DNA from: Antedon mediterranea
Taxonomy: Eukaryota > Echinodermata > Crinoidea > Comatulida > Antedonidae
Assembly (NCBI RefSeq): GCF_964355755.1
Contig: NC_092677.1
Coordinates: 24,708,101-24,772,100 of the forward strand
Direction: 5' to 3'
Length of the DNA: 64,000 bases
The notes under the pieces are model-generated. The model worked only from the letters and a program-made list of their open reading frames with translations, had not been told where the DNA came from and did no database searches. A program made the translations under genes and the position numbers. Of this stretch, positions 2,501-52,605 are shown one piece after another; the stretch's first letter is position 1; each line of letters opens with the position of its first letter.

Positions 2501-2774
2501 ATCATCCCAATCCCAACTTCCTTACTTGGTTTTATTAACTTGTTTATTGGCATAATATAACATTTTGTAATTTTATCGATCTAGTTTGATCTTTCTAATC
2601 ATCTTAAAAGCCTAATAAAAAAAACTTCAAATAGGTATACCATGTGTAACAATTGTTGATATAGTAAGTTTATATAGGAAAAAATGGGCAGAATAGTAAT
2701 CTATCCGTATGGTAGACCTACCCCGTAAACTATACTTTATGTGTATCCGATACAATACACTTATGCACATTATA

Positions 2775-15064: not shown

Positions 15065-15329
15065 ATCATCCCAATCCCAACTTCCTTACTTGGTTTTATT
15101 AACTTGTTTATTGGCATAATATAACATTTTGTAATTTTATCGATCTAGTTTGATCTTTCTAATCATCTTAAAAGCCTAATAAAAAAAACTTCAAATAGGT
15201 ATACCATGTGTAACAATTGTTGATATAGTAAGTTTATATAGGAAAAAATGGGCAGAATAGTAATCTATCCGTATGGTAGACCTACCCCGTAAACTATACT
15301 TTATGTGTATCCGATACAATACACTTATG

Positions 15330-24154: not shown

Positions 24155-25327
24155 TTATATTTTATTTTCTGCTATGAAAAGGAAAAGTTCGTGCACGAAA
24201 GGTGGTGGCGGTAAGTCATATATAGTTTTCAATTTTACGCCTTCTCTCATAACAACATCGTATGAAGGAGGAGGAATGTCTTGAGAAGATTCCGGGTCTT
24301 GAGAAGAGCAAGGGTTTTGAGACGCGCAAGGGTTTTTAGACGCGCAAGGGTTTTTAGACGCGCAAGGGTTTTGAGACGCGCCAGGGTTTTGAGACGCGCA
24401 AGGGTTTTGAGACGCGCAAGGGTTTTGAGACGCGCCAGGGTTTTGAGACGCGCCAGAAGAGGATGAAGTTGCTGAATTATCATTGGTTTGGTACTCAGCT
24501 CATTCGTTAACAACTCCTCTACAATAATTTTCATCTGCTGAAGTAAGCCTACATTTCTTCCTGCACAATCCATATACGTAACTGCATAGTAGACAGACGA
24601 AACAGCACAAGTAAGGGGTAGAGAATATCATAACCATAAAAACACCTGCTACAACAAAAGATTCATCAGAATCATCGTCATCATCATTTAATTCTGTAAT
24701 ATGAATAAACAGGATAATAATTGTGAATAAATTACTTTGAATTCATTAATTAATATTCATGAATATTGGTATAAGGGGGTGTTTAGTGGTATCAGGCGGT
24801 GTCTAGTAGGACCTTTAAACCTTATGGATTGACATAACTTTTTAGAGACAGAATATCGCTGTAAGTCCCTTCTGGTTTCTATTTTATGTAAACTTCTATG
24901 GGCCGCGCGTCGGGTTCGTTCTCTGCTGTCCACTCATAAACGAATTTAATTCCATAAATGTCGTTTAAGTTAGTTAGTCAAAACTTCAACCTTAAAAATC
25001 ATCAGTACCTCCAAAACACTTCAATTTTACAGGACTGGTTGTCATACAAATGCTGCTTGCAGTCCTTCAGACTATCTTCCAATCCATTACATGTAAAGTC
25101 GACCTTGTAGTTTAAGGAACCATCTAGCACGGCGTAACTGTTCAATTGAGAGCCATTTGAGTACCCAAGCTGCCTACAAGCTACTTGTGAGTTTTCACTT
25201 GTCCAATCATATATGCAAATTCGACTTCACTCGCCTTGGTACTTCATTTCTAACCGACCAATATTCGATGAATTTCCAGAGGAATCTCCAATAAGACGTA
25301 ATGAATAATTTTCCAATTGCTGTTCAT
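24155..25327 (-). pseudogene. Broken SRCR gene (SRCR exon + membrane/tail exon)
   Basis: The SRCR exon is 25009-25327. The conserved Trp of GEW is a stop (TGA, 25227-25229), the exon length of 319 breaks the phase, and the last conserved cysteine is replaced (KIEVFW in place of the KLRCYE motif). The tail exon starts at an intact acceptor (24693) with LNDDDDDSDES and a hydrophobic cysteine-rich segment, then stops at TGA 24500-24502. Past that stop the same frame stays open through SQNPCA repeats and a PPxY-like tail (PPPSYDVVM, PPPPFV) to 24155. No signal exon is seen upstream. Gene 5 shows what the intact version looked like. Confidence 0.75.
24301..24457. repeat. 18-bp minisatellite in the broken tail exon
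   Basis: About nine units of gggttttgagacgcgcaa with small variants. On the minus strand each unit encodes six residues, SQNPCA or a close variant, and the length of 18 keeps the frame. The matching place in the decayed exons at about 2290-2330 and 14855-14895 has only two or three units, so the array expanded in this copy. Confidence 0.9.
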
Positions 25328-25429
25328 CTAGACCAATACAATTCGATAACCATACATTAAAAGAAAACAAAATATTAAAACGACAGTTTACAAACATAAG
25401 CTTTAACACATTTGTTTTTTAACTTCCTC

Positions 25430-27347: not shown

Positions 27348-30128
27348 TTATACAGGTGATTGCACGTAAGGTGGGGGCGGTGAGTCATACAAAGATTTGA
27401 ATCTATCATCTTCCATAACAGAAGCGTATGACGGAGGAAGGTCGTGAGAAGGGCCAGGGTCTTGAGAATAGAACGATGTTGCTGAATCCTCATTGGGTTG
27501 TTCAGCACCTTCATTGACAACTCCTATAGGACGAGTTGTATTTACATTATTTGCTGAAGTACTTCTATTGCGGCACAGACAGGCGTAACAGCAACAGTAA
27601 AGGCCAAGGAGTATCAGAAAAATTATAACAATTATAAATCCATTAGAAAAAAGTCCAACACCATTGTCAGAGAAATCATCGTCGACAAAATCGTCATCAG
27701 AACCATTTTCATCAGAATCACGTAATTCTATAATGTTAATTGTGAATACAGTATAATTAATTTGAATTTTTACGGATTCAATTCTACAAAATATTGCTAG
27801 TCATTTATGTTTAAAATTTAAACTATAAACCTGAAAAATACTTCAATTTTACCGGATGGTGGCAGTGTCGGTTGTCAGTTAAATGCAACTTTATCACTAA
27901 GACCAAATATAGACATGATAATGTCATATCACCACCATATTTGACAACATCACATTTTTTGTGTCAAACTAGTGTAGACAGAGCTTTAAATATATTCATT
28001 TACGTCACGGAACTATCAACTCATAAGTGGCTTACCTTTATAACATTTTAATTTAACAATAAAACAGTACGGATCGTGATCAAAATGCTGCTTGCAGCCC
28101 TTCAAACTATCTTCAAGTCCATTACACGTAAAACTAACTTGGTTGGAATCGTCTGGCTTGGAGTAGCCGTACAATTGCTCGCCTCTTGAGTATCCAAGCT
28201 GCCAACAAGCTACTTGTGAATTTTCACCTGTCCAATCATTTATGCAAATTCGGCTCCACTCTCCTTGATACTTTACTTCTAACCAACCAACATTCGAGGA
28301 ATAATCTCCAGTAAGACGTAATGAATAGTTTGGAAATTCTTGATCTACACTATCTTCATATTCATCTAGATAATAGAATCACGATACATTAGAAAAATGC
28401 AAATCTACATAACAAGTATTATTATTTTAGTTCCTGATAGCATACCTTTTTGAGATTGATTCTTCTCGATATTAACCTAAAAAATTACCCTTCTTTAGTT
28501 CGCGACAATAATTCAAAATTATGCCCGTAGGCCTACATTGTGATTTACTGTACTCTACCACTCTATAGCATTCTCCAGAAACGTTGACATTTTCACAACC
28601 ATATTTTATTTCCTTTGGAATCACATGGTTTACCGCAAGCCTAACTTTATACACTAACCTGAACATATGAAACGAACTTTAAAGTCACTACACTTCCTGT
28701 TTGGCTGGTCCACATTTTTACATTTGAGGCCCGAAGAAGCGCTACAAGTAACATCCTCTCCAGTTGCAGTGTAAGGCAATCCACTAGCAGTCTGACATTC
28801 GATAGCTGTTGGATTTTCACACATTTCATCGGGATACTCCTAGAAAATGTAACAGAAAAGGTTCTTTCTCCCAACAAATGTAGTAGAGCCTACATTAATG
28901 AGATTTTGTCAAGTCGTCCAGTGACAAAAGAAGGAAGAAGATTTACAAAAAATATCAATTTAGGCCCTAGTTACATAAGGGGCCATCTTACTGCAGTAAT
29001 TGCATTTTGTTTACTCTTTAACCGGTTTATGAAATTATTTAGCAGCTTTTTGGGTGTAACCATACACACTATTTCTTGCCGTTAATTGCAGTAAAAAATG
29101 TTACTGCATTAGAATAATTTTGACATGATCCCTCGAATCATTTGAACCCTGTAATCATGCTTCAAGTGTAAATTAAGCAAAGCAAACTATTGATTTCATT
29201 AAAAAAGAACTGTTATTTTAGATGGACAGAATGTACTTACGCCGTACAAATCACTAACAGTCTCAAAATCGCCAATGTAGGTTGGATCATCGTAGTTAAA
29301 CCACCGCGTCCACTGGCCTGCAATGTAAATTCAATGTAAATACCAATAGGCCTAGTAGAATTATGTTGATAATCATATTGGGGTAGGGTTTTTTTGATCG
29401 TCTGGTTTGTCGTTTTGATCTTCTGGTTTGTTTTGATCGTCTGGTTTGTTTTGTTTTGATCGTCTGGTTGTTGTTTTGATCGTCTGGTTTGTCGTGTTGA
29501 TCGTCTGGTTTGTTGTTTTGATCGTCTGGTTTGTTTTGATCGTCTGGTTGTTGTTTTGATCGTCTGGTTTGTCGTTTTGATCTTCTGGTTTGTCGTTTTG
29601 ATCGTCTGGTTGTTGCTTTGATCGTCTGGTTTGTCGTTTTGATCTTCTGGTTTGTTGTTTTGATCGTCTGGTTTGTTTTGATCGTCTGGTTGTTGTTTTG
29701 ATCGTCTGGGTTGTTCTTTTAATCGTCTGGTTTGTTCTTTTGATCGACTGGTTTGTTTTAATCGTCTGGTTTATTGTTTTGATCGTCTGTTGTTTTGATC
29801 GTCTGGTTTGTTGTTTTTATCGTCTGGTTTGTGGTTTTGATGGCTGGTTTGTAGTTTTGATCGCTGGGTTGTTTTGATTGTCTGATTTGTTGTTTTGATA
29901 GTCCGGTGTGTTTTGATCGTCTGGTTTGTTTTGATCGTCCGGTTTGCATGTTTGTCGTGTCATATCATGTACAAATATCTCATTTTGTCAAAAGACGTTT
30001 TTTAAATAGTATAATTATTAATTAATTATTAAGAACTTATTGACATATTATTTGCTGATCTCTCTACCTGAAGTAACTGAAATGACAAATGACAACAAGA
30101 TAATAATTGTCAACCTCGATGGACACAT
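27348..30128 (-). CDS. Gene 5: WxxW-SRCR membrane protein with a PPxY tail (342 aa)
   Basis: Five coding exons: 30068-30128 (signal peptide, residues 1-20), 29241-29317 and 28659-28839 (together residues 21-106), 28036-28365 (SRCR, 107-216) and 27348-27727 (217-342). The lengths sum to 343 codons with the stop. The second domain has the mucin/CILP WxxW pattern: QWTRWFNYDDP, IGDFET, then YPDEMCENP, IECQTASGLPY, GEDVTCS, GLKCKN and KVRFIC. The SRCR has six cysteines but reads CWQLGY where others have CRQLGY. An acidic stalk precedes a helix at about 247-266. The cytoplasmic tail ends in two PPxY motifs, PPSY (314-317) and PPPY (334-337), sites known to bind WW domains, for instance of NEDD4-type ligases. 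Receptor turnover by ubiquitination is inference. A 5'UTR acceptor lies at about 30145. Confidence 0.85.
27885..27988. mobile_element. Partial MITE in the last intron of gene 5
   Basis: The right end gtgtagacagagcttta and the inner catatcaccaccatattt match the MITE family found four times at 57-61 kb. The left terminal repeat is missing or too diverged to see. Confidence 0.6.
28489..28644 (-). other. Possible cysteine-rich cassette exon in gene 5
   Basis: A 156-nt open stretch lies between a phase 1 acceptor (tgtataaag|TT) and a phase 1 donor (AAGG|gtaatt). It encodes 52 residues with four cysteines (CENVNVSGECYRVVEYS, SQCRPTG, NYCREL). It sits only 14 bases after the donor of the preceding WxxW exon, so it cannot be spliced to that exon. 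It could only replace the two WxxW exons by joining the signal exon directly. The acceptor has a poor pyrimidine tract, so it may be a chance open frame. Confidence 0.25.
29385..29955. repeat. ~20-bp minisatellite in the first intron of gene 5
   Basis: Around 28 imperfect copies of ttttgatcgtctggtttg (16-20 bp) run for about 570 bases. The left part is regular and the right part more decayed. The minus strand gives an artificial open frame of NNKPDDQ-type repeats, which is not counted as a gene. Confidence 0.9.
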
Positions 30129-30149
30129 CTTTCAGAAAAGAGCTCTGTA

Positions 30150-30830
30150 AAAAAATTGAACAAGTTAACACAATCAATTTCTTATTTCAGAACCTTATTT
30201 CAAATCGAATATCAAAATTAATGAAAAAATAACACGATTTAAAATACTTTCTGCTTAAATACATGATTGATTTAATGTTTTAATGTTTACGAACATTGTT
30301 AAAAAATAACATTTTAGAAGTAGTTCCATCCACACTGTAAAACATACATATTTTATAAGTACCAAATTAATAAAGTGCAAAACATAGGTACAATGTGGAC
30401 TAATCAGGCTTGACGTTTTCAAATTCAACAAGGTCCATAGTTGGTGCTCCCTGATACATTACGGAATAAACTTACGCAAGTCTGTCTTACGTGGTCTTCT
30501 AATACAAAATGTTAACAGTTTCAATGACGTTTGCTGGTCTATTTATTGAGAATGAGTATATATTTCGAATAATATCATCAGGAACTAATGTCCTTATTTG
30601 TTATGTTGTACAATTTATTTCATTTTACCTTGTATCATTGCGATGGTGGTACGCTACCAATTGTGTTCCTTTTGTTATCTCTTTTCTTGTTACATTGAAC
30701 TTGTTACGGGTCAGTAAAATAATCAAAAAGCATCAAATAAATTCAATCAATCAATCAATAAAATGCCATTTTCTATGGAAACTATAGTAAATCGTGAAGT
30801 ATTCTAATAAAGGCTTACTTAAAAAATCCG
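30150..30830. other. Upstream region of gene 5
   Basis: No coding exon is supported. A 92-codon plus-strand open frame at 30509-30787 is hydrophobic and reminiscent of the end of a degraded element, as it ends in an aatcaatcaatcaat run, but it has no recognisable domain. The gene 5 promoter should lie here; a minus-strand TATAAAAT at about 30350 is the only candidate seen. Confidence 0.35.
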
Positions 30831-30831
30831 G

Positions 30832-31121
30832 TAAGCTTGGTTTCCGCAAAGCAAGGACTTACGCGCACCAATTTGACCAATCACGATGCGCGAATCATTG
30901 GAACTCTCGCTTGTGATTGGTTAACACACTTGCGTTACGTCTACGTCGTTGCATCTAAAGCTTAGTTCCCACTAGAACGTAACGCAAGGACGTAAACGCA
31001 ACGCAAGCATTTTAACCAATGACAAGCGAAGTTATAGACAGTTAGCAATCACAAGCGAATAAGCCATCGCTTGTGATTGGTCAATTTACTTGCGTTGCGT
31101 CGCCAGTGGGAACCACGCTTA
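30832..31121. mobile_element. Two adjacent MITE copies (ttgcgttacgt family)
   Basis: The second copy (30958-31121) has terminal inverted repeats: aagcttagttcccactagaa at the left and a matching gtgggaaccacgctta at the right. Its interior has further inverted blocks around cgcttgtgattggt. The first copy (about 30832-30957) is similar but lacks one end. Fragments of the same family occur at about 31690-31780 and 41365-41480, at matching places beside genes A and B. Confidence 0.7.
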
Positions 31122-32154
31122 AATGTATTACCGTACCCTTTAAACTGTTATCTACACATCGGTCCAAAATCAATACATTCTCGTAATGTTCAATGTTAAA
31201 ATAAAAAAAAAATTAAATTAATTAAAATTATTCCAAAATGACAAGAACATAGATAGACAAATATTCAAATATTATTTAAATATAAATTAGAAAATGTTAT
31301 TCTTTCCTGGTATAATTTAATACATAATTAAATTGATAGTCTTAGTAAAGTAAACTGTTATTCAACGGAGATAACAGATAAATTAAGAACGGCTACTAAT
31401 AGCTACAACTTAGTTCACTACTATATAGATACATTGTTTATTTCTATGATTCTACCAAATAATATTTCAATTTATGATTATTACATTAATATTGTTAATA
31501 TCATTATTACTAAAAACACCAGTCAGTCATGTTGTAATGCAATTAAAATGCTACGATTAAAAGTAGGCATATTGCTAAGACACACATTGCAAAAGATAAT
31601 GTAACCCGTTGAACAGCAATGTGTTGAAACGAGACAAAGACAGGCATGAAGGCGCCTTACACTTTTATGTACCCACTAGCGCATAGTCTCTCTAAAGACG
31701 CAACACAAGCGAGTTGACCAATGACAAGCGACTGTTCGAATAATCCGTCGCTTGTGATTGGTCAACTCGCTTGCATTTTTAGAAACAAAAGCTTAAGCAA
31801 AAAGTAAACAATGCATACAATTAGATTATATGATCATCACTAGGCAGTTTAAAATTTCTCTCAATTAAAATTATTTAATATAACAATTAAATTTTAATAT
31901 TAAAACTAAAAAATTAAACCAAATATATTTTTTACATGATTAATAAAGAGATATGTTATCAAATAAATGTTAAACTATATTCGATACATTTAATATTTAC
32001 ATCCACACAAACAATCTCAAAGAAACTAAAACATCTAAATAAAAACATACCCTTGATAACATTGTATTAAAATGAATATATAATGCACATATTACTATAT
32101 AGTTTAATTTATCAATATATAAAAATTACATACAATTATCACTAATGTTAATTT

Positions 32155-32450
32155 TTTATGTACAAAAGTTATAGTTTATATATAAATGTTAATGCATATT
32201 CATGATTGTTATTGCATATATGCATGAATATTAATGCATATATAAGATTGGTAATGCATATGCAAGATTGGTAATTCATATGCATGATGTTAATGCATAT
32301 TCATGATTTTTATTATTGCATATACAGTATGCATGAATATTAATGCATATATAAGACTGGTAATGCATATGCATGAATGTTAATGCATATTCATGATTGT
32401 TATTGCATATATGCATGAATATTAATGCATATATAACCGTGAATAAGTGC
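32155..32450. repeat. AT-rich array of atgcat-containing units
   Basis: Irregular units of 20-30 bp of the type gttaatgcatatgcatgaat repeat through this stretch, with a remnant beyond the hairpin at 32970-33030. A matching but shorter array lies at 41870-42010 and 42150-42220 in block B. Confidence 0.8.
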
Positions 32451-32479
32451 ATTTTGTAGGATTGTAGATAATAAATAAA

Positions 32480-32968
32480 TCATTTTGTTTGACAAATCCA
32501 AAGGAAATTACTCACATTCTTTAGCTTTCGCCATCTTGGCTGATGGCTTGATCACAAGTGATCCGGTCCACTACTACTTCCTGGAAATCTGTTGTTATTG
32601 TTTCTAGGTGACGTCATACTTTTTCGTAGCAGTGATGTGTATACGTGATCGAGATATACAGCCCCTTCGTCGATTGGGATGGGGCAAAAATTCTTGACAG
32701 AGACTCTAACCCATTCAAGCGTAGAATCAGAGAGGCAATCCAAATCAGAAAGAGGGGGACTAACGCAATCAACCGCGACGAAGGGGCTGTATATCTCGAT
32801 CACGTATACACATCACTGCTACGAAAAAGTATGACGTCACCTAGAAACAATAACAACAGATTTCCAGGAAGTAGTAGTGGACCGGATCACTTGTGATCAA
32901 GCCATCAGCCAAGATGGCGAAAGCTAAAGAATATGAGTAATTTCCTTTGGATTTGTCAAACAAAATGA
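32480..32968 (+). mobile_element. Penelope-like retroelement 3' end in a head-to-head hairpin
   Basis: Two arms of 193 bp each (32480-32672 and 32776-32968) are inverted copies with about one visible mismatch, around a 103-bp spacer. From the spacer into the right arm the plus strand encodes the end of a Penelope-type GIY-YIG endonuclease: DWDGAKILDRDSN, KRRIREAIQIRKRG, NRDEGAVYLDHVYTSLL, then a basic, Ser/Gly-rich C-terminus. The left arm is the same C-terminal part in reverse orientation. Inverted, 5'-truncated copies are typical of Penelope-like elements. The near-perfect arms imply recent insertion; block B shows no hairpin here. Confidence 0.7.
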
Positions 32969-33049
32969 TGTATTTAATGCATATATAAGATTGGTAATGC
33001 ATATGCAAGATTGGTAATGCATATGCATGAATGTAAATTGGATCTAAAT

Positions 33050-34290
33050 GTTTATTTATCGCTGTATGTGTTCTCCACATAAAATGTTTTTATACATTTT
33101 AAAAAAATATATAAATATTACAAATAACCACCAGTTATTTCTACAATATATATAAAATACATATTGTTTAATGTAAGGTATTTCAGCCTATTTACAAATA
33201 ACCTAGTTATCACCCTCATATTCTACCGTTTATAAAACTTACTAATTAACCCTGAGAACAATGGGATTCTACAAGAATAATAATACGATACCTACAAAAT
33301 AACTACTACTACTGATTTATACAGGTTTTACACATTTCTTTCTAAAATTGTTTATAATAACGTTAAATATATCTTAATATGACAAAACTAATTTGATACA
33401 CGATTGCCGAATTTATTTGAATAATTGCTCCTCCCTCCTTGATTAAATGCTCCTCCCTCCTCAAATAAAAGTACAAATAGAACATCGTTTGGAATAAACC
33501 CCCACCCCACTCCTCAGGACATTTATTCGAATAAATATGGTATACATATATGTATTAAATATTAGTATTCATTTAGCAATTTGTGAATGTCCATAATTGT
33601 TGACTAAAATAAGTCTTTTTATCCAATTGATTAATTTGAGGATCTTTAATATGGTCTACATCATCATTATGAAATACTTTTTATTCAATTATTAGTAATA
33701 TCAATTAATCTACTACAAACGCTAAATAAATAATATATAGGTTTCAATTTTATCCTAGAAATAGTTTCCTGCAAATAAAAGCACGGCTTTGTAAAAAAAA
33801 AATTAAAATAGACACTTTAAAATGGAAGGAAACGTGTTAAAACAACAGGCTGCAGATCTAAAGTTTAATAAATGTTTTTACAAAATTAGAAGGGAATAAA
33901 TTTTACAAAGAAGAGTACAGATGCTGGACTACAAGAAGTTGGAAATACTAAAAGCACACACACACCCACACGATTAAACAATATAATTACATAAACAATT
34001 ACAAAAAGATACGCGGGAAGTTAATTAATTGGAAGAGAAAACAAACAGGAGGGACCTATAAAGGTTTCTCAGTAAAATCTTTGTATTGGAATGTGAACAT
34101 AAACTACTTTGGATAAACATGCGTACATTCATGTATTTGGAATTTCTTAAGCCTGGTTTCCATAAAATTGATACGCTGATAAACTTGTGAGGCAATCAAC
34201 TTTCAACGAATCAGCTTGCCATCCTGTCATCACGGATTCCAATGCAATAGAGCAATATGTAAAGCGATTTGTTGAAAAGTTTAACTAGAA
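33050..34290. other. 3' flank of gene A
   Basis: AT-rich, with no exon seen. Much of it from 33530 on matches 42590-43250 downstream of gene B, including the stretch cttaagcctggtttccataa just past the stop codons. It should contain the gene A polyadenylation site, which I could not place with confidence. Confidence 0.5.
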
Positions 34291-34295
34291 GTTTC

Positions 34296-37200
34296 TTAAC
34301 CATAGGTAATATGGTTTGGATTTGTTGAGTAGTAAGAAGGTGGAGACTGTGAGTAATCTGGGGGAGGTGTCTCTAATGAAGATTTGTATTTATCCGGATC
34401 GTCCATAACGGCAGTGTACGACGGTGGAAGGTCTTGGGCAGGGGGCGCCGATGGTGATGTTGGCACGTTTGTGGTAGGTTGTAACTCAACGCCAGCATTT
34501 TCAGGTTGGGCTGTAGTATCATTATTTTCTGCCGGTGGTGGACTACTCTTCTTCTTGCGGCATAAACAAGCATAACACCAGTACAAGCCAACGATCGACC
34601 CAATCGTAATACCTGCAATAGCGCCACCAGATAATCCTCCTGTCATATAAAGATTTGAATTAATGCACTTGTATAATTTATATTAATACCTATATATTGG
34701 TAAATTGGTAATGTGATTTTCATTTCTCTTTAGAAATCGCTGAATGAAACTTATCCATGGAACGAAATACATTTTGATAACCACTGTTAGCTCAGTGAAT
34801 AAAACGTGTGACCATTGATGGATGTACGGTCAATTTGATTCCGCAAATGTTTGATTGAAGCTTCTGTTTGGCTGTTTCACTTTACGGTTTGATTTAGCTC
34901 TTCCTTATTTGTATCTCCATTTAGATCTTTTAGAATCCCATATGATAACTCATTTTTCAGTAATTTACATTTTTGGATTAATATATAATTATTAATATTC
35001 TTTCTTACCTGAATGTTTACATTTTACAGCAAAATCTGAAAAATGGGAACATGATTCATACGTATTTTCATAAGATTCACAATCGCTTAGATTTTCATCG
35101 TAATCGTCACAATTAAAGGTGATTTTGTGAATTGGCGATTCATCAACTTCAAACGTGTTGTAATTGTAAACATTTGTCGTCTCACCACCGCCTTGGTATC
35201 CTAGTTGCTTGCAAAGAGTTTCGGTCTCAAGCTCACCCCAATCATAAGCACATACTGTTCCCCAAACACCGTACAAGAATACCTGTACTATTCCTTCATT
35301 GACGATATCATTTTCGTACTGCCCTACCAATTTTGCATCCAGGTGATTATAGTGTTGATCTAGTAAACAACAAAATAATATAGCTCATGTAAAAAATTAA
35401 TATTTAAAAAAATAAAAGATACCCATTTGCGACCCAAGGACATTACTTTTTTAATGACGTGAATCAAGATGTACATCATAAACTGGGTCAATATTTTTAC
35501 AGTAGAGAGACTAAATTGACCACTCTCAATCATTATGTTATCAATCAATCATTAAATTACTGCTCTACAGTACGTTTTTTTAAATGTATTTATCTGTATA
35601 ATTAACATTTTGTCTAGATTAATTGCATGAATTTTGTATGGAATAATATTTATAGCATTAAGATTCACTCAACCATGACAGTTTACATACTTGTTGCGTA
35701 TACTGAATACACATGCAATGATTAATATATTAAACTAATCTATGCCAGGCTAGCAAGATGTGAGGCCTAACTAGAAAAGTACAGTATATACAGGCTGTGT
35801 GATGTTTAAATAAAGTGTTATAAATAAAATATTAATGTTTTTATAATTTCTATCAATAAAAACAGTCGCTGCTGTAGGAGGAATGCATGTGTGCAGCTTG
35901 TCTCACACAGCAGAGTTCCTCACACAGCCATGGCTTTGTTTTGTTGTTAAATTGCACCTTCAATGTAAGCAAATTATGACATCATCGGTCATTTTAAGCG
36001 TACATAAAATCCATGGAACGTAAAACAGAGGTTTTCCAATGTATGATCTTACCTTCGTTTGTACATTGTAATTTAACAGTATCATAACAAAAATATTTCG
36101 TCTGCGGATTATTATGGCAGTACATCAAACCACTTTCATATCCATTACAGGTAAATTCAACCTCATAGGATGAGTAACCATCACTTATTTGGTAACCATT
36201 CACCAATTCATCACTTCTTTTGTAGCCAAGCTGCCTACACGCTACTTCAGAATTTTCGCTTGTCCACTCATCATTGCAAAGTATTGTCCACTCTCCTCTA
36301 TATAATACCTCTAACCGACCAACGTTTGAGTAAATTCCATCAACTAGACGGATTGAATATTCTTCCAAACCAGGATCAACTATATTTATAACAAAAGAAA
36401 TATTTCATATAACACCTAAAAATAGTTAATTGCATGAGAACAAACTGATTCATAGGAAGTTGAACAAATTTCAATTTCTACATAATATGTATGATTTAGT
36501 TGCAAAACGCAGAAGTTTGAGGCCCTTGGTTTAGGGACACTAAGTGGTCTTCTAATGCTAGAAGCATTGGGCGTTTTTTTGCCTTTTTCGACATATTTTA
36601 GTGTCCTTTTTTTCTCAGAGTCCTGCTTAGAAAGCCCTCATTACAGCTGGGGCCCCTGGGTGTATGATACATGCATGTTATCAAAGGATATCCTAGTACA
36701 AGGTAATGAGAGATGGCACTGAGATGGTGAAGAATACTTACGAACCTTCAGAGCACGCCAAAGACACATCTTCACTATGGCTGCAGTCATGTGATCTAAT
36801 TGTGTTATATGTACACATATAAAGCCTAGCCTCATCACCATCGCATTGCACTTCATCTAAAATAATCGACTGATACTCAGATCCAACATAGCTGTCTGAA
36901 AGCAAATAATTCTCAGGTGGGCCGAAACCTAGTTCCCGACATACCACTTGGGCGTCTGGTGAGTTCCAGCTATCATCACAAACTGTTCCCCATTCTCCGT
37001 TATGGTATACTTCAAGGCGTCCTTCATTGTCTGAAGGTCCACCAGTTAGTCGAATTTCAAAAACTGTAATAAAAAAAAAAGATAATAAAATATGTTGCTG
37101 AACTACTTTCATCATCCTGATATTATTTAAAGAAAAGTGAATCGAGTACACATCAGCCTAATTTAAAACAACACTAACTCACATGATTGGCTTAAATATG

Positions 37201-37447
37201 GTAGTGATATGACATCATCATGTCCATATATGGGCACATCACATTTTGTTTGTCACATTAAGTTTGATAGTGTAGACAGAGCTTAATGCATGTTTTAAAG
37301 ATAAGTGTGATTGTGTACAGAATGGTGACAACATTGTTTGTGTAGGAAGTTAAGGCCTTTACAAAAAAAAAATATTAATTATTAAACTTTACCTGAATAA
37401 ACTGAAATGATAAGTGATAAAGTGAGTGCCACTCGCAATAGTAGCAT
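34296..37447 (-). CDS. SRCR gene A: three-SRCR membrane protein with a PPxY tail (464 aa)
   Basis: Five coding exons: 37393-37447 (signal peptide MLLLRVALTLSLIISVYS), 36746-37063 (SRCR1, residues 19-124), 36053-36379 (SRCR2, 125-233), 35009-35359 (SRCR3, 234-350) and 34296-34639 (351-464). All introns are phase 1 and the sum is 465 codons with the stop. Each SRCR has six cysteines. SRCR1 is closest to the common consensus (VFEIRLTGGPS, GRLEVYHNGEWGTVCDDSW, VVCRELGFG). A glycine-rich GLSGGAIAGITIGSIVGLYW helix is followed by CYACLCRKKK and a proline-rich tail with PPSY (422-425), PPDY (443-446) and PPSY (450-453). The SRCR1 donor must be the weak gttcgt, because using the nearby gtaagt would bring in a stop. 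Surface receptor with WW-domain partners is the inferred role. Confidence 0.88.
34785..34870 (+). repeat. tRNA-like SINE head in the last intron of gene A
   Basis: The plus strand has gttagctcagtgaataaaac followed after about 30 bases by gtcaatttgattccgc, matching the A and B boxes of a tRNA-type promoter. The stem halves do not pair as a complete tRNA, so it is read as a SINE remnant. Confidence 0.45.
37185..37286. mobile_element. Partial MITE in the first intron of gene A
   Basis: It contains aaatatggtagtgatatgac and ends in gatagtgtagacagagctta, the right end of the MITE family found at 57-61 kb. In block B the corresponding intron holds the split pair of ends at about 50525 and 52454. 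Confidence 0.7.
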
Positions 37448-38224
37448 CTTCTTTTGAGATAATCTGAAACAAAATTTTAAATTTAATATTTACACATTAT
37501 TCACAATTACATTTACAATATTTAATAATAGTATACCTATAGGTAAATTTAGTAATTTTTTTAATTGATTAATTACACATTTATTCACAATTCACAATTT
37601 TTAATAAATTTAGTATACCAAAAGCGAATGAACACCATTTTATACAATATTAAAATAGGCCTAGAACTTTTTTTTTTAAATTTTGAAAATCATTAAGTGT
37701 ATACAGTACTACTTAAATACTAGCTAGTGATGGCTTTCACTTTTGATAAAGATTAACATCATAAACAAGGCAACTGAAACCTGTCATACGTACTTGGCCT
37801 ACATCTACAGCAAGTTTTTTTTTTATTGTATTGTACTACTGCATATAGGCTAGGCCTTGTTTAGTTTTTGTTACAATTTTTTTTAGCTTTAACAACTAAG
37901 TTGTAGAATAAGTTTATTTAGAATTTGATTGTAATTGTATTGTCTAATGACCTTTTCAGCCCAGGCCTACGTATATAAAAGCAAGCACATTAACGGGTAG
38001 GCCCGATATCGGCTTCTGCTGTCTCCTTGTGTCAGTCTCTCTGCTGCCCTTTCCGATACGACAGGCCTAGCTAGAGTACTTACTAGAGGGATTACTAGGC
38101 TAGTTATACTCTAGCCTAGGCCCTATGTACACGTAGTGGGCTAACCCGTCTACATACTAACTAATACTATTTTATTAATACTGTAAAAACATAATTATTT
38201 AGGCTAGAATGGCAAAAGTAGTGG

Positions 38225-38345
38225 TAATAAATAGGCTAGAAATACCAGAAAAAGCGGTTCCTTATTTATATGTCGTCTCGAGAGAGCAGCAGCAGCGGCA
38301 CAGCGTTTCCAATAGCAATGGCGCCCTCTATTATGGCAAACTTTA
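38225..38345 (-). promoter_or_regulatory. Candidate promoter of gene A
   Basis: On the minus strand a GC-richer stretch with a CCAAT-type element and agggcgccatt leads into TATAAATA at 38270-38263. The same order (gcgccatt, then a CATAAAAG TATA-like box at about 53329) is kept upstream of gene B at 53320-53390. The leader exon would splice to the acceptor at about 37464, just before the ATG. The matching donor was not identified. Confidence 0.4.
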
Positions 38346-38349
38346 GTCA

Positions 38350-40770
38350 TAATATTAACACATGTGAGTTTACATCATCACTGTCTAATAATAACTATGA
38401 CGAGACATTAATCAAATCAATATTTTATTAAAATCTGCATTTTCAGTTTCATTACTTTATTCATAACAGTTTGTTACAAATTCATCGATTCAACAAGGAT
38501 TTGGTCCCGGATTTTATATATTTTCGTATTGTTTCAAATGTAAAATATGAATATAGACCTACATGGATTGAATATTATTTAATAGCCGACAGAAATGGTT
38601 GTATCAGGTATAGCCGGAAAAACGGATGTTACAATCCGTGCGGGATATTAAACTATGTCATAGATTATCTCATAACCTCCTTTTTTTGGAAGACATAACA
38701 AATGGCTCTTGTTTTTCCAAATGTTGTAAGCAAGTTTCCAAGTAAATAAATCTATATATAAATTACATACGGGAAAAATTCGGTAAATCGTGCGTTACTT
38801 CTAGAATTTTTACTCGATGGTATATATATAAAGTAAAGTTGGTTCATCGTTCCTTCTACGGTAAATGTTTTTAATAGCTGGAAATTATTATTAAAGCTCG
38901 GGTACAGCATCATAACGTTGAAGACAAATGATTTTCTTAAAAAACATATTTTGATAAGATTTAATTCACGTTTATACAAACGTATTGCTTAGCGATGAAT
39001 GAAACATTCCAATCTCTCTCTCAGTAAATTTTGGTATAACACACAAGTAGGTAAATCTATGGGCCTTTGGGGGATAAACTTAAAACCTTTGACAATAAAT
39101 ACATAAACCATTTTGTATCACCATTTGAAGTGCAAATGTCTTACTGTGAGTGTGTGGGTACTGTTTAAACACATTATACAAATAAACGTTATTACTAACA
39201 GTTGCTTCTCAACGTTAATTGTAATTAATTAATAATTACAAAAAATATAAACGTAGTAGTGGTGTATCCTTACAAGTACTTTACTATTTCAATCAACTAT
39301 GACAGTGACAGTATTAAATCGCAAATGTTTTACTGTGTTTAGTGGTACATTTTATCGTATTAAACATAAAAACAAATATTAGGTTGTTACGAATGAAGAA
39401 TATATTTTAAAATGGTTCCTCTTTGCACCCATTCTTTTGACCATCTTTCAACCCTAATGTTACATACAAAACACAAATTGGGTTTGTTTAAATTTGACTC
39501 AAGTAATTCTCATTGTGCTAATTTTTAGTTGACTACATAATCCGTGTCTATTTATTCGTTCCTCCTGCAAACGACTTTATTATAGTCCTGCGCTACGTAC
39601 ATTTGCAATTCCCGAAATTACTGTGTATTTGGGAACCATCTGTGGGCACGCGTACCATCTAGTAAATAGTAATTCCTTATTGCGACTTATTGCGTCTCAA
39701 TTAAATACTACCGGTACTGATATCCACATAAATGCTGCCATTCAATTGTGTAGAATCGATCCTCGTCATTTTATAGCTTTCAAAGAAAAACAATAAATTA
39801 TATACACAGTACTGTATAATGGCGGTCTTTACAGTACTGTATTTCTAGTGGTAAACAATCTCTGTTCAAGCAGCCACTGGGTTGTCAAAGGCCTATGTGT
39901 TTTAAAAGTAGTCCGGTTGAAACCTAACTGTACTGGTGGCTACGGCCAGCTGTTTATTGAACAGCACATTCGTGTACTCGACATTTTATACCTTTTTTTT
40001 TCGTCTTTGTGTTGCCCTGGAAAACCACCCAGAAGGTTAAGTATCAGCGTCTAACTTCTAACTCATAGTATTGTAACAGTGTCGTTCGGTATTTACAAGG
40101 TCGAGTACGTCCTCCTTCGTTCACGTCCTGACCATACTAACTTGTATTGCTTTGAAAAGCCCGCCATACCTGACGTGGCATGCGTCATCACGCGATTGGT
40201 CGAACCACGGTTAATAATTTACATAATGGTTAAATCCGTCTTGTTATGGTTCCACTAATGCAATAGGCCTACTACGTATTAATACTATTAATTTATATTA
40301 TTAAATTTATATATATATATCTCCCGCCTCTCGTTAAAATGCAAATTCTCCCGATATGTTGAATAAACCAAAATAATCTCCAGATATATAAATATATTTA
40401 TCAATTTTAATATTTTAATATTGATACAGGAATAGACAACATACTACTATTGGTCTGTATAATGTTTATAACACATTCATGCATGGAATAATAAGTGGAA
40501 TAATGAGTTGCCAGCGCATGTTTTGCCTTCAGCACGCATTATTGATGCCAACATTTATATTTATTTTTAAAAGTAGACATATTTCCTTTTCATTTAATTT
40601 ATTCGACCAATAAACATATACAGAACAGAAACAAAGCAGAATGGTCAGGGGCAACTAAAGCAAAACAATTACTATAACTCAAAGAGTCAGTTTCCCCTTA
40701 AAAAACATCAAAATACAAAAAATATTGCACCAAGTAAAACATTTGTACAAGCTTAATAAATTTAAAAAGT
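38350..40770. other. Upstream region of gene A
   Basis: No gene is supported. Patches at 38440-38540 and 39840-40560 match 53450-53530 and 53690-54780 upstream of gene B. Open frames at 38471-38698 and 39848-40054 are not kept between the two copies, so they are not counted. A taatatatatatat patch occurs near 40310. Confidence 0.5.
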
Positions 40771-40773
40771 CTC

Positions 40774-41115
40774 TTAATACTCAAAATTAGTATAAGGGAT
40801 CGGTACATAAATATACAAAATTAATAGATTAATAATCAGAAACAGCATCTCTTTCAGTGAGGTAATGTCGGAAAATGTTAAAAAGACCTGAACTGCTGAA
40901 TTTCTTACATCATCAGGAAAAACAGACCACATACGTGGAAATAGATTGACAGGAGAATTACTAAAGGCTGTGGTGCCAAGATATACTCTGCAAAAGATAA
41001 TGTAACCTGTTGAAAAGCAATGGGTTAAAATGAACAAAACGAGTGAAAAAGCACTCCCCGATCTGCTTGGCATGAAGGCAGGCGCATTACACATTTCATT
41101 TACAAATCTACCCAC
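40774..41115 (-). mobile_element. Probable non-LTR retrotransposon 3' fragment
   Basis: A 113-codon minus-strand frame contains GTTAFSNSPVNLFPRMWSVF and then PDDVRNSAVQVFLTF and SLKEML, which resembles the loose C-terminal pattern of LINE reverse transcriptases (aromatic-W-x-x-P-x-x-[IV]-R, followed by a FK..LK-like end). A more decayed copy sits at about 31560-31680 at the start of block A. Only a fragment is present. Confidence 0.35.
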
Positions 41116-42019
41116 TTAGCGAGTATTTTGACGAATCACCACAGGATGGATCAGAACTGTCGACAATGACAATGATTAATTTATCGACCCTTTCAGGGTA
41201 TGAAAGAACATTCTTTCAACCTTATACACATAACTAAACACTTCCAGACATAAATATTTTGGTCTTATACAGCAACATCTAACTAAAACAAATAAAAAAT
41301 TGTGTGCATAAATTTAGCTAAGTTTGAGAGTTTTTTTTTGGATCTGGTATTAAGTAATAGATAATAAGTCGCTTGTGATTTGTCAACCTACTTGCGTTAG
41401 GCCTACACAAGCGAGTTGACCAATGACAAGCGACTGTTCGAATAATCCGTCGCTTGTGATTGGTCAACTCCTTGCATTTTTAGAAACAAAAGCTAAAGCA
41501 AAAAGTAAACAATGCATACAATTAGATTATATGATCATCACTAGGCAGTTTAAAATTTCTCTCCATTAAAATTATATAAAATAAAAATTAAAGTTTAATA
41601 TTAAAACTAAACCAAATATATTGTTTACATGATTAATAAAGAGATATGTTATCAAATAAATGTTAAACTATATTCGATACATTTAATATTGATATTCACA
41701 CAAACAATCTCAAAGAAACTAACAAATCTAAATAAAAACATACTCTTGATAACATTGTATTAAAATGAATATATAATGCACATATTACTATATAGTATAA
41801 TTTATCAATATATAAAAATTACATACAATTATCACTAATGTTAATGTACAAAAGTTATTGTTTGTGTATGAAATATTAATGCATATGCATAATTGTTATT
41901 GCATATTTATGAATGTTAATGAATATGCATGAATGTTAATGAATATGCATGAATGTTAATGCATAATTATGCATGAATGATAATGTATATATGCATAAAT
42001 GTTAATGAGTATATAATAA

Positions 42020-42150
42020 TAATTCATTCTTATATAGCGCATATAAGCAAGCTCTCAATGCACTGAACATTATTACCCCAGTCATTTTTTGGATCAAACA
42101 CGTATGGAAACATACTCCCATGCAGCTAGTAATCAGCGCAAAGTTGAAAG
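42020..42150. repeat. Interspersed repeat with ttatatagcgcatat
   Basis: This stretch (ttatatagcgcatataagca, tctcaatgcactgaacatta, ccccagtcattttttggatc) splits the atgcat array of block B and is absent from block A. It resembles the 3' tails of SINE or LINE families that share ttatttataaagcgc-type ends, like the one at 61800. Confidence 0.5.
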
Positions 42151-42224
42151 TTAATGCATATATGCATGAATGTTAATGCATATTCATAAATAATAATGCA
42201 TATATGCATGAATGTTAATTTGAT

Positions 42225-43250
42225 CGGAATGTTTATTTGTTAAAAAAAATGTTTTTATACACATAGAACATCGTTTGGAATAAACTCTTTTCCCCTCCCC
42301 TCCCCCCCCCCCCCACCAAATAAATAAACGCCCCACAAATTGCACATATCCACAATATATTACTTATATTTAACATTTATATTTGTAGTAGAATTCATAA
42401 TCTACAATTCAACAACAATTTGAAACAATTTTTACTGTATTTTATCACTTTTTGATAATTGATTGTGCTGAACTTTTTCAAATTTAGGGAGAATTTATTT
42501 GATTATACATGTTACCATATTACGCTAACAAAAATAAACGCCGCTCTCAAATAAACGCCCATCTAAAAACCCTCCTGAACAGTAATCACCTCAGGGTATT
42601 TATTCGAATAAATATGGCATACATATCTTGTATTCAATATTAGTATTCATTTAGCAATTTGTGAATGTCCATAATTGTTGACTAAAATAAGTCTTTTTAT
42701 CAAATTGATTAATTTGAGGATCTTTATAATGGTCTACATCATCTTTATGAAATAATTTTAATTCAATTATTAGTAATATCAATTAATCTACTACAAACAC
42801 TAAATAAATAATATATAGGTTTCAATTTAACATAGAAATAGACATCGTTTCCTGCAAATGAAATCACCACTTTGTAAAACATTTAAAATAGTATGTATTG
42901 GAATGTGAAAATAAAATACATGTATGGAATGTATTTGGAATTAATTAACTTTTTTTAACCTGGTTTCCATAAAATTGATACGCTGATAAACAAAGGGACC
43001 TATAAACATTTCTCAGTAAAATCTTTGTACTGGAATTTGAACATAAACTACTTTGGATAAACATACGTACATTCATGTATTTCGAATTTCTTAAGCCTGG
43101 TTTCCATAAAATTGATAAACATGTTGAGGCAATCAGAAAGGCATTAAACCAATTCAACTTTCGAAGAATCAGCTTGCCATCCTGCCATCACAGATTCCAA
43201 TGCAATAGAGCAATACGTGAAGCAATTTGTTGAAAAGTTTAACTAGCAGT
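42225..43250. other. 3' flank of gene B
   Basis: AT-rich, with a C-run at 42290-42315 and no exon. The stretch cctggtttccataaaattga occurs twice (about 42960 and 43095), so part of the flank has been duplicated locally. Confidence 0.5.
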
Positions 43251-43253
43251 TTC

Positions 43254-46200
43254 TTAACCATAGGTAATATGGTTTGGATTTGGCGAGTAGTAAGAAGGTG
43301 GGGACTGTGAGTAATCTGGGGGAGGTGTCTCTAATGAAGATTTGTACTTATCTGGTTCGTCCATAACGGCAGTGTACGACGGTGGAAGGTCTTGGGAAGG
43401 GGCGGGGGGTGCCGATGGTGATGTTGGCACATTTGTGGTAGGTTGTAACTCAACGCCAGCATTTTCAGGTTGGGCTGTAGTATCATTATTTTCTGCCGGT
43501 GGTGGACTACTCTTCTTCTTGTGGCATAAACAAGCATAACACCAGTACAAGCCAACGAACGACCCAATCGTAATACCTGCAATAGCGCCACCAGATAATC
43601 CTCCTGTTATATAAAGATAGAGATACTAATCGATTCATTTGTTTATCATCATTAAAATGTATAATATATACGAATTAGGATTCGTTTTATTTGTTTTTTT
43701 GTTTTTTGTTCATTTACATTTTTGTTCATTTCATTTCAATTTTTTTTGTTTAGTTTTGTAATTACATTTTTTGTAATTACATTGTGGTCTAGTTTTGATT
43801 TTTAGCTTAAAGTGGTGATACTTAATAATTACACATGTCGCGGATTCGAACACGAACGTACTAAGCATTGATATCAATGACCATGGCGTTTTACTCAGAG
43901 ACAAACTGTGACATAACATGGTCGCTGAGACGTCAAATTACTGCTATATTTTACCTTTTTATCCTTAAATTTCAGGAAAGTGACATAGCATATCGTTTAT
44001 CAATAAACATCAGTGTGCCAAATGTGAGCACGTACCGTTCAGTGGTTTTGGAGGAGATACGTAAAATACGCAAAAAATTTAGTAGCATTAATATATAAAT
44101 CCAAAGGCAAATAACTGAAAAAATGACAATGCTGTGGGTATCAGTGGCTGGATCTCAATGGATACAAAAAAAAAGCGAAAAGCTAAATCAAAACGATAAA
44201 GTAAAACAGCCAGAAAAGTTAGCAGAGCTTTCGGGCAACACTAGCCCTTCATCAGTGCAAGTGAATTTGGATAACGTCATAGTATAAGAGCTGGCAAGTG
44301 CTGCCTGGGTGGACAGGAATAAAAGAAATACAACAAAAGGAGACAGGGTGGAGTCTGAATAAGAGTAGAAAACAAAGAAGGTAGCTTGGTAGAGATATAA
44401 ACAATTTTGGAATGAAACTAAAAAACAGCTTAAATGGTAGCATTAATATATAGACATTGTTTCGTACCTTTTTTACATTTTACAGCAACATCTGAAGAAT
44501 GTGAACAGTAATACGCAGGCTCAGATTGACAATCACTTAGTAGATGATGGTCATAATCCTGATTACAATCAAAGGCTACTGAGTGAACTGGTCGGTCATC
44601 AACTACAAATGTATTGTAATTGTAAGCCTCTATCATCTCACCACCGCCTTGGTATCCTAGTTGCTCGCAAAGAGTTTCGGTCTCAGGCTCACCCCAATTA
44701 GTAGCACACATCTTCCCCCAAAGACCGTATAAAAATACTTCTACTATTCCCTCATTGGTGTTATCATCGTACTGTCCCACCAATCGTGCATCCCCATGAT
44801 CATAGCTTTGATCCTCTGTAGAAAGAACAAATTTAAGAGCCATTGTCTGTAAAAATCAAAGATTTGGTGGCAGATGTAAAAAAATGGATTTCTCTCAAAT
44901 TTTTACCATGAATAGACATTTCAATAAAAAGCATATCTACAACATTCATTTTAATTTTTAGCCTCCGTTTCCATGACAACGGTCAATTATCCAAATTTTG
45001 ATGTTTTTGCCATTTTTCACAGATTTTCTATAGTGAAAAAGTACAAACTTGTATACTTATTTTAACCAAAAATACTTACAGTATACAGTTTTTGTTTATA
45101 GCAGTGTAAACAACATGTATTATGTTCCATTTAATGTAGAAAAAAAATAAATTACAAAATGGAGTTTGGTTGATACCATTATTTTAAAAAGGGGTGTTTT
45201 TTAAAAATATTTTTTTTATAAAAGTATACCTCATAAACGTACCTATAACTTCCAAAGTGGTGTTTTTAAATCAATGAGGTTTTTTAATTTGATAGTAAAT
45301 AGGTGTCTAAACAATAATCACGAAAAAAACACTGGGGTAAATTTCGTACATAGGTTTTGTGTTGCCAAGAAAATACAAAAAATATAACAAAATATCAACA
45401 AACAAAACACATGAAACACAATTTAAATATGGCTAATCCAATAATAAAATGTATATGTGGCTTGTCATAATGCTACTAGAGTCATACGAATAGTTTAGAT
45501 AAAATAGGAGAATGTGTTGCCAGGTTTATTTCAATTAATTGCCAGAAAAACAGTATTTTGCATTGAAATATTTAGTTGATGGCAAATAATGTTAAACTTG
45601 GAAATAATTGCGTCAATGGTTTTTATAAATTTTTAAATCTATTTTGTGTAAAGAGATACAGAAAGACCTCCAAAAAAATCTGACCTTGTAAATAGGTCAT
45701 TTGAGGTCAAAAGGGGTCAGAATGCAAAACAGGACAGGTCCCCACTTTACTACAACTATTAATGTTTGATCAAAATTTACAGGATAGTTCATAACAATTC
45801 TCAACAATTTTCATATTTTACCTATAGTGTTACCTTAACAACCATTTCTATGTGTAACTAAGGAAAGTAATTTTTTTTTTAAACGTAAAAAATGGCGTTT
45901 TTATAAATACAAAGAATTGATTGCATTTGTAATTTTTCTCAATTTTACTTCTACTGCATTCCATTAATGACAAACTTGACCTTGTAAATTCATTCATTTT
46001 GAGGTCAACATTTTACCATAGTAACTGTTTCTATGTGAAAATTTCAAAAAAATAAGGGGTTTTTCAAAAATACAAAACATTTTTTCTACATAGTTTTACA
46101 TTTCTACTTTTTGCCAAATTTACTTTAAATACTGAATCCCAATAATCTCAGAAAGAAAGTCTTGACGAATCTGAATAAAGGTAAAAAAATTACCTTTAGT

Positions 46201-52200: not shown

Positions 52201-52605
52201 AATAGCCGTCTCTACTCCGGCGGGCGGGCTACAGTATACTATAGGGCCTAGGCTAGCTAGCTAGGCTTCTTAGACGGTGACCAGGCACCACCTAAAACTA
52301 ACTGTAAACATCGAAGTCGCATCTGGATATTCGAAATTGTTAACATAATTACATTAACGGTAGGTACACACAAATATTAACAAAGGCTTATTATTATTCG
52401 AAGGCTCGCACTTTTGTTGTCACAGAAAGCTTTATAGTGTAGACAGAGCTTTACCTACGACAAGTGTGATTGTGTACAGAATGGTGTGACAACATTGTTT
52501 GTGTAGAAAGAAGGCCTTTACAAACAAAAATATCAATTATTAATCTTTACCTGAATAAACTGAAATGATAAGTGATAAAGTGAGTGCCACTCGCAATAGT
52601 AGCAT
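43254..52605 (-). CDS. SRCR gene B: three-SRCR membrane protein with a PPxY tail (460 aa)
   Basis: Paralogue of gene A with the same five-exon plan: 52551-52605 (signal peptide identical to that of gene A), 50065-50379 (SRCR1, residues 19-123), 49220-49534 (SRCR2, 124-228), 44468-44815 (SRCR3, 229-344) and 43254-43603 (345-460). Phases are all 1 and the sum is 461 codons with the stop. SRCR1 reads GTVCNNGW where gene A has GTVCDDSW. SRCR2 is rich in Tyr near its end (QYYYYCDKPVKLQC). The membrane/tail exon is much more alike between A and B than the SRCR exons, with PPSY (418-421), PPDY (439-442) and PPSY (446-449). The gene is stretched to over 9 kb by transposons in introns 1 and 3. Diverging ectodomains over a constant signalling tail would suit paired recognition receptors; that is inference. 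Confidence 0.88.
43830..43905 (-). repeat. tRNA-derived SINE head in the last intron of gene B
   Basis: On the minus strand gtgttcgaatccgcgacatg matches a B box, and the upstream tctgagtaaaacgccatggt region stands where the A box should be. The downstream 100-200 bases show no further SINE structure that I can identify. Confidence 0.35.
46564..46994. mobile_element. Non-autonomous pogo/Tigger-like element nested in the TTAA element
   Basis: Terminal inverted repeats: tacagtttaacctcccgtaa at the left faces a degenerate gggaggtggccgctgta at the right, flanked by TA. Internal blocks repeat gtggccgcttat. TA target and cagtt/aacctcccg-type ends are characteristic of the pogo/Tigger branch of Tc1-mariner elements. 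There is no transposase. Confidence 0.6.
47640..47850. other. G-rich stretch inside the TTAA element
   Basis: The region 47410-47770 is rich in ggtgg and gggg runs (such as ggggtgggtgggggcttgga), unlike the AT-rich surroundings. A 63-codon plus-strand frame here (47661-47852) is a by-product of that composition and is not called as a gene. Confidence 0.4.
50525..52454. mobile_element. MITE-ended 1.9 kb composite in the first intron of gene B
   Basis: The left edge, aaagctctgtctacactatg, and the right edge, tagtgtagacagagctttac, are the two terminal inverted repeats of the 57-61 kb MITE family, but they lie about 1.9 kb apart instead of about 150 bp. Between them is a complete pogo-like element (50779-51922) plus about 650 bases of other DNA. 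Either a MITE was split by a later insertion or this is a longer element with the same ends. Confidence 0.5.
50779..51922. mobile_element. Non-autonomous pogo/Tigger-like element
   Basis: The ends are tacagtcaactctcccaata and its inverse, tattgggagagttgactgta, a perfect inverted repeat of more than 20 bases bounded by TA. Inside, several accggact and aaaaaccgga blocks repeat near both ends. Length is about 1.14 kb with no transposase frame. Part of the interior (51420-51800) is unrelated, aggcctaggcct-rich DNA. Confidence 0.75.

Follow-up and report, generated by a model that had tools for sequence, protein, structure and literature searches.

The SRCR superfamily includes the Class I scavenger receptors and proteins such as CD163, CD5, CD6, and WC1, and it is expanded in echinoderms; to our knowledge, little has been described of how the numerous SRCR genes in animals with such expansions signal or dispose of their ligands. 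A stretch of 64,000 nucleotides from the crinoid Antedon mediterranea (C8:24708101-24772100, where C8 is contig NC_092677.1; hereafter the window), in a genome of 354 Mb on 18 contigs, holds three SRCR genes, A, B, and C, whose extracellular parts differ and whose cytosolic ends look alike. An earlier note on this DNA, made from the letters alone, had claimed that the three genes share a homologous tail with PPxY (PY) motifs, which are ligands of WW domains. We find that predicted models of these genes do end in such a tail, which is homologous and under constraint and holds PPxY motifs in tandem; it follows in frame on a predicted signal peptide, SRCR sequence, and a predicted membrane segment.

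The PPxY tail in the window

The pattern PPxYxxVM (CCNCCNNNNTAYNNNNNNGTNATG) matches six times in the window, always on the minus strand, against an average of 0.00 in 100 shuffles. Three matches lie in the tails of A (43385), B (34427), and C (27437; gene 5 of the earlier note), and three more, absent from that note's finding, lie in decayed copies at 24271, 14804, and 2240. The tails of A, B, and C can be aligned with the letters quoted before, i.e., LPPSYTAVM with LPPSYASVM, DKYKSSLE with DRFKSLYD, and PPPDYSQSP with PPPPYVQSP, and the two or three motifs claimed per tail are there: three PPxY in A, three in B, and two in C. When the residues of each cytosolic tail were shuffled, the PPxY number exceeded the shuffle mean in all six tails compared, namely those of A, B, and C (P = 0.0013, 0.0006, and 0.002) and of three relatives from outside the window, D, E, and F (P = 0.0004, 0.037, and 0.002; all P values uncorrected). 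The motifs sit in the putative cytosolic tail, with topology taken from hydropathy, as would be expected from the sequence of a NEDD4 ligand.

Gene models

The models were built from splice signals and reading frame, so that splicing is predicted, and signal peptides and membrane segments were called from hydropathy only. A, B, and C have five exons each, zero internal stops, and phase-1 introns, with a single phase-0 intron inside the WxxW domain of C. In A and B, the order is signal peptide, three SRCR domains, membrane segment, and PPxY tail, and in C, it is signal peptide, Mucin2_WxxW, one SRCR domain, membrane segment, and PPxY tail. The exons are as follows (E, expectation value).

52551..52605, minus strand: gene A exon 1, encoding the signal peptide MLLLRVALTLSLIISVYS (hydropathy), with a phase-1 donor; identity to gene B exon 1 is 100%
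50065..50379, minus strand: gene A exon 2, SRCR 1, Pfam E 1.4e-26; weak donor G|GTTCGT
49220..49534, minus strand: gene A exon 3, SRCR 2, Pfam E 2.6e-16
44468..44815, minus strand: gene A exon 4, SRCR 3, Pfam E 1.1e-14
43254..43603, minus strand: gene A exon 5, encoding the membrane segment and a cytosolic tail that holds LPPSYTAVM, PPPDY, and PPSY
37393..37447, minus strand: gene B exon 1, signal peptide, same as that of gene A
36746..37063, minus strand: gene B exon 2, SRCR 1, Pfam E 7.2e-30
36053..36379, minus strand: gene B exon 3, SRCR 2, Pfam E 4.2e-16
35009..35359, minus strand: gene B exon 4, SRCR 3, Pfam E 5.6e-17
34296..34639, minus strand: gene B exon 5, encoding the membrane segment and the PPxY tail, with 96.8% identity to gene A exon 5
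30068..30128, minus strand: gene C exon 1, probable signal peptide MCPSRLTIIILLSFVISVTS; weak phase-1 donor GTAGAG
29241..29317, minus strand: gene C exon 2, first part of the WxxW domain
28659..28839, minus strand: gene C exon 3, second part of the WxxW domain, joined to the first by the phase-0 intron
28036..28365, minus strand: gene C exon 4, one SRCR of the position-2 lineage, Pfam E 1.7e-13
27348..27727, minus strand: gene C exon 5, encoding an acidic stalk, the membrane segment, and a tail that holds LPPSYASVM and PPPPY

The whole A protein gives three Pfam SRCR matches, and the SRCR domains of A (all three), B (all three), C, and D exceed the curated cut-off of 26.1 bits; in the genome-wide SRCR search, the first SRCR domain of E and that of F also score above it. 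Mucin2_WxxW (PF13330) is found in the spliced C protein at E 2.6e-23 and 83 bits, against a cut-off of 22.4, over profile positions 1-88 of 88. SRCR domains of group A have six cysteines and are encoded by two exons, whereas those of group B have eight cysteines and one exon. The domains described here mix these traits, with six cysteines in all 26 rows compared (as trimmed) and one exon for each SRCR. An ectodomain of SRCR alone with a membrane anchor, i.e., the layout of a Class I scavenger receptor, fits A, B, E, and F, whereas C has an additional WxxW domain.

Another candidate for the signal peptide of C, beginning MIINIILLGLLV, was rejected because its frame is not that of the WxxW exon whose acceptor it enters; a better fit is given by the exon at 30128. 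Between the signal exon and the WxxW exon of C (29376-29990), the window holds a low-complexity DDQNNKP-like repeat which is largely open in three minus-strand frames.

Homology and constraint of the tail

To separate shared descent from shared motifs, the PPxY letters were hidden and the pairwise similarity of the tails was compared with that of 2000 shuffles. For the pairs A-C, A-D, C-D, and A-F, none of the 2000 shuffles scored as well, and for E-F, 64 did. A, C, and D therefore form one homologous tail set, and F is linked to it through A. The homology of the E tail would rest on exon position, a GLSGG membrane segment, and one motif. In the alignment of all six tails, PPSY is invariant (6/6), and PPPxY is present in five.

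The tail exon of A and B is also far more alike than the exons of their ectodomains, with identities of 100, 85.7, 77.0, 80.2, and 96.8% from exon 1 to exon 5. The 150-base flanks around SRCR 2, around SRCR 3, and directly before the tail exon are 59-69% identical (raw values with no random baseline), with 65% for the 150 bases upstream of the tail exon, and the flank 3′ of that exon is 93% identical. The last tract of similarity between the two genes begins 15 bases before the tail exon and continues 3′ of the stop codon for as far as the comparison reached; such a pattern is what gene conversion or exon-limited selection would give.

Substitution rates per nonsynonymous (dN) and synonymous (dS) site were compared as well. 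Between A and B, the tail shows dN 0.015, dS 0.122, and dN/dS 0.12, and the ectodomain shows dN 0.237, dS 0.347, and dN/dS 0.68. The low dS of the tail indicates that its identity is partly recent homogenisation, for which we infer gene conversion as the source, and its low dN/dS indicates selection as well. Among A, C, D, and F, the 16 PY codons have dN of 0.03-0.23 against 0.46-1.26 for the tail linker in all six pairs, a comparison of few sites in blocks that were chosen for being conserved.

How the ectodomains are related

The claim that the ectodomains behind this tail differ stands as far as their domain content goes, i.e., three SRCR domains in A and B and WxxW plus one SRCR in C, but the SRCR domain of C belongs to the position-2 lineage of A, B, and F. 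This follows from a tree of 26 SRCR rows, for which the program warned of long branches, those of F2 and E2 among them. The position-1 domains of A, B, E, and F form one group (node values 96/85), the position-3 domains form a separate group (94/84), and the position-2 domains fall into more than one group. The single SRCR domains of C and D (93/92) cluster with 12 SRCR domains of array genes in the same cluster (100/99), and this group adjoins position 2 of B (81/82) within a larger group that also holds A2 and F2 (94/90). Because of this position beside B2, we reject the reading that unrelated ectodomains acquired a shuffled tail. The placement speaks for domain loss rather than for borrowing of the tail by unrelated receptors, and C and D look like products of such loss, with a WxxW domain gained in C. 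Genes A to F are thus, as far as tree and tails tell, paralogues with ectodomain exons gained and lost.

Relatives and spread of the tail in the genome

A protein search of the genome with the tail exon of A returned eight matches among eight candidates, A included, all on contig C8; the weaker ones among them were F, at E 0.02, and two decayed copies, at E 0.16. D, at C8:24.697 Mb, has an SRCR domain and a PPxY tail, and its tail exon finds C at E 2e-27, A at 5e-17, and B at 7e-17. E, at C8:24.84 Mb on the plus strand, has a signal peptide, three SRCR domains, and a tail in an open five-exon model with consistent phases. F, at C8:27.248 Mb, has three SRCR domains and a tail in a four-exon model and, although 2.5 Mb away, keeps DLPPSYTNVI...PPPAY.

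Beyond these genes, the pattern PPxYxxVM, with x mostly restricted to Ser/Thr, matches 14 times in the genome (6 times for a reversed-pattern control), and 7 of the 14 matches lie in the present cluster. Five of the seven outside it (L013, L014, L016, L018, and L019, on contigs C1, C2, C8, and C9) are open tails with two PPxY each, and no SRCR domain was seen within a few kilobases around them; the other two (L015 and L017) are chance-like, in open frames of 25 and 28 residues. At L016, a Methyltransf_FA domain (PF12248, E 3.5e-18) lies upstream of the two-PPxY tail, and the tail style is therefore wider than SRCR genes. Because of the five open tails, we reject the idea that every such PY match is an SRCR tail.

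Conversely, the PPxY tail is not general for the SRCR genes of this genome. Ten other SRCR cluster ends were sampled, including one with 5000 of its 7801 bases masked, and a single end had a membrane segment with one PPxY behind it, in a scan that is blind to tails on a separate exon. That end (L021, C8:27375500-27383200, minus strand) lacks LPPSYxxV and has PLEYLPQPGIT-like repeated tail units with one PPEY. The membrane threshold was 1.4, at which 6/6 controls were found and 0/10 opposite strands gave a call; at 1.8, controls A and B were missed.

Decayed and PPxY-less tails

The cluster also holds tail exons which have decayed or which lack PPxY.

24155..24742, minus strand: decayed membrane-and-tail exon of gene 4, with an in-frame TGA at 24500-24502 between membrane segment and tail and PPPPF as second motif
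14700..15098 (approximate), minus strand: decayed PPxY-tail exon downstream of array gene 3, with in-frame stops, PPPSYDVVM retained, and PPPF as second motif
2136..2540 (approximate), minus strand: decayed PPxY-tail exon downstream of array gene 2, translated identically to the copy at 14.8 kb, with in-frame stops and PPPF
16854..17192, minus strand: membrane exon of array gene 3, with a Gly-rich tail without PPxY

The SRCR exon of gene 4 (25005-25418) has an in-frame TGA as well. Gly-rich tails without PPxY (GGGGYGGGGG...) occur on the minus strand in array gene 2 (4862-5155), in array gene 3 (16854-17192), and at L010 (6101-6448). The stalk and membrane part of the exons of array gene 3 and L010 matches the gene D exon with 46% identity (E 6e-7 and 3e-5).

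The decayed tail exons are carried by a segmental duplication that pairs window positions 419-1426 with 12990-13990 and 3911-4210 with 15958-16257. Among its duplicated 300-base stretches, identity is 99-100% where the spacing is 12564-12571 and 94% where it is 12047, and for one stretch there is a third copy (98%) at 22679. At 2664-3599, units of 106 bases stand in tandem in seven registers, with 60-97% similarity to a reference copy. Elsewhere, a Met/Pro-rich open frame at 62194-62454 (minus strand) has no Pfam match to E 0.01 and is perhaps an exon of a neighbouring gene. In the genome, the set of sialyltransferase (PF00777) matches is very large, at least 150 with 142 of 221 candidates scored, with clusters on C7, C9, C5, and C1 among others.

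What the tail may do

The account that we somewhat favour is a family of single-pass SRCR receptors in which the ectodomain exons diversify, the last exon stays near-constant, and the tandem PY tail recruits a NEDD4-family ligase for ubiquitin sorting. The extracellular exons would vary (three SRCR, WxxW plus SRCR, or SRCR alone) over a membrane and PY-tail exon that is kept; DLPPSYxxV and then PPPxY would bind a NEDD4-family HECT ligase through its WW domains, in the manner of PRRG/Commissureless (Comm) and CYYR1; the ligase would ubiquitinate the receptor, which as read by eye has a lysine 5 to 11 residues beyond the first PY tyrosine in 6/6 tails, or its bound cargo; and receptor and ligand would be internalised and sorted to lysosomes, with a putative role in immunity. 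Taken alone, recruitment of a NEDD4-family ligase to a membrane receptor by the tail is likely. Among the matches listed, four loci have both WW and HECT matches, i.e., C8:7.12-7.13 Mb (four WW), C11:5.67-5.68 Mb (two), C1:16.53 Mb (two), and C1:38.24 Mb (one); in a direct read at C8:7.12 Mb, two of the four WW places are visible. We suggest, more tentatively, that a variable head on a constant double-PY tail, maintained by gene conversion and purifying selection, would deliver any ligand or cargo bound by the head to the same NEDD4-type ubiquitin sorting, as a PRRG/Comm-like adaptor for recognition.

The tail might instead bind WW proteins other than NEDD4-type ligases, e.g., MAGI, YAP, WWOX, or dystrophin-type proteins, in which case the receptor would serve for scaffolding or adhesion and not for endocytosis. 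Of the 25 WW matches listed, 16 fall outside the four WW-HECT loci, and an excerpt of PMC5578492 reports that MAGI proteins are also bound by the PY motifs of PRRG4. However, the tail resembles known NEDD4 ligands in that its PY motifs are spaced in tandem and the first has a hydrophobic residue at +3, and we regard such other partners as unlikely.

The endocytic adaptor AP-2 has the consensus YxxPhi, and its valine form fits YTAV in A and B, YASV in C, YASV in D, and YTNV in F, so that YxxV could be an AP-2 signal with incidental prolines and an uninvolved ubiquitin ligase. We consider this quite unlikely: both prolines before the tyrosine, unneeded by AP-2, are invariant in 6/6 tails, E has YDVA, and the residues after PPPxY (SQS in A and B, VQS in C and D, and TNL in F) fit YxxPhi only in F. 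The AP-2 and WW readings can also be compatible together. Finally, that the tail is a passive proline-rich segment without function, alike only through recent exon duplication or conversion, is very improbable: the A-B identity is partly recency (dS 0.122 against 0.347 in the ectodomain), three window tails have decayed, and the array genes manage without PY, but the A-B tail has a dN/dS of 0.12, the PY codons are better conserved than the linker in 6/6 pairs of A, C, D, and F, and F retains both motifs at a distance of 2.5 Mb.

Several points weigh against a homologous tail that docks a NEDD4-family ligase. First, the gene models are predictions from DNA and WW binding is putative; the model of A includes 4.4 kb of intron ahead of SRCR 3 and relies on a weak donor behind SRCR 1, and a signal exon for F, looked for around its locus, was not found. 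Second, the masked comparison is at chance level for A-E (1480/2000 shuffles as good) and chance-like for C-F (524/2000) and D-F (887/2000); BLAST with the F tail finds B at E 2.4e-5, whereas the values for A and E are no better than 2.84 and 5.69; and the E tail has one PPxY and ends EIEPPSYDVAVKT.... Third, the A-B flanks at the signal exon and SRCR 1 are 79-91% identical (again with no random baseline), and the sameness of A and B therefore extends beyond exons; the C-D and A-C tails overall show a dN/dS of about 0.4-0.6; and the six tails are paralogues and hence non-independent samples. Fourth, in an excerpt of PMC5578492, midline sorting of Robo by Comm is independent of NEDD4 binding, and the PY tail may therefore act other than through NEDD4.

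Relation to known PY-tailed proteins

The excerpt of PMC5578492 describes an extended LPxY motif followed by PPxY in PRRG proteins, gives GLPSYDEAL (Comm1) as the essential motif of Comm, and reports that Comm and PRRG4 bind NEDD4. A layout of this type, i.e., [LP]PSYxx(hydrophobic) and then PPxY after one membrane segment, is found in A, B, C, D, and F; E, with its single motif, does not have it. PRRG, Comm, and the tails of A to C thus have in common a single-pass protein with an extended LPxY motif and PPxY, in the order LPxY to PPxY for PRRG and A to C, whereas in Comm further PY motifs precede LPSY. The ectodomains differ, with a Gla domain in PRRG, a short ectodomain in Comm, and SRCR or WxxW in A to C, and no Gla match was found in A or C among Pfam families to E 0.1, leaving them outside PRRG. 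The likeness to PRRG/Comm is one of layout.

WBP1/WBP1L and Shisa are relatives of CYYR1 (STMC6-type). The C tail matches the Pfam profiles WBP-1 (E 3.7e-5, 24.8 bits, gathering threshold 28.1) and CYYR1 (E 7.5e-5, 23.6 bits, gathering threshold 31), and neither profile is listed for the tails of A, D, E, and F, the four others in the Pfam scan. With scores this weak and sub-threshold, we do not place the tails in the WBP1/CYYR1 or yeast RCR families. CYYR1, according to an excerpt of PMC11399591, has a signal peptide, a Cys-rich domain, a membrane segment, and three successive PPxY motifs that recruit WWP1; loss of one PPxY barely affected the binding, whereas loss of pairs drastically abolished it. 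Its Cys-rich ectodomain is unlike the SRCR and WxxW domains of A to C. The C-termini of ENaC carry an extended PY motif, PPxYxxL (excerpt of PMC2582799), which is alike, but ENaC is a channel and its protein is unrelated to A to C. By their letters, the tails of A to C fit the extended PY motif of ENaC and the LPxY-then-PPxY order of PRRG.

We know of no member of the SRCR superfamily with a PY tail. The likeness of A to C to proteins of the CD163, CD5, CD6, and WC1 type lies in the repeated SRCR domains, from which C differs by its added WxxW. No described SRCR/PY family was found in the open-licence literature searched for SRCR with PPxY, WW domain, NEDD4, PY motif, or coelomocytes, and the excerpts of PMC5119243 and PMC13409769, on SRCR in coelomocytes, do not mention PPxY. 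The novelty of the combination of SRCR with a PY tail is provisional because the literature search covered open-licence sources only and animal proteomes lay outside the comparison.

Meaning for the SRCR family

A layout for docking a ubiquitin ligase would connect recognition by SRCR domains with ubiquitin-dependent trafficking in a directly testable way, and the PY-tailed and Gly-rich-tailed paralogues in one cluster are a natural comparison. With their putative WW-binding tails, these receptors probably steer captured ligands into ubiquitin-controlled sorting.

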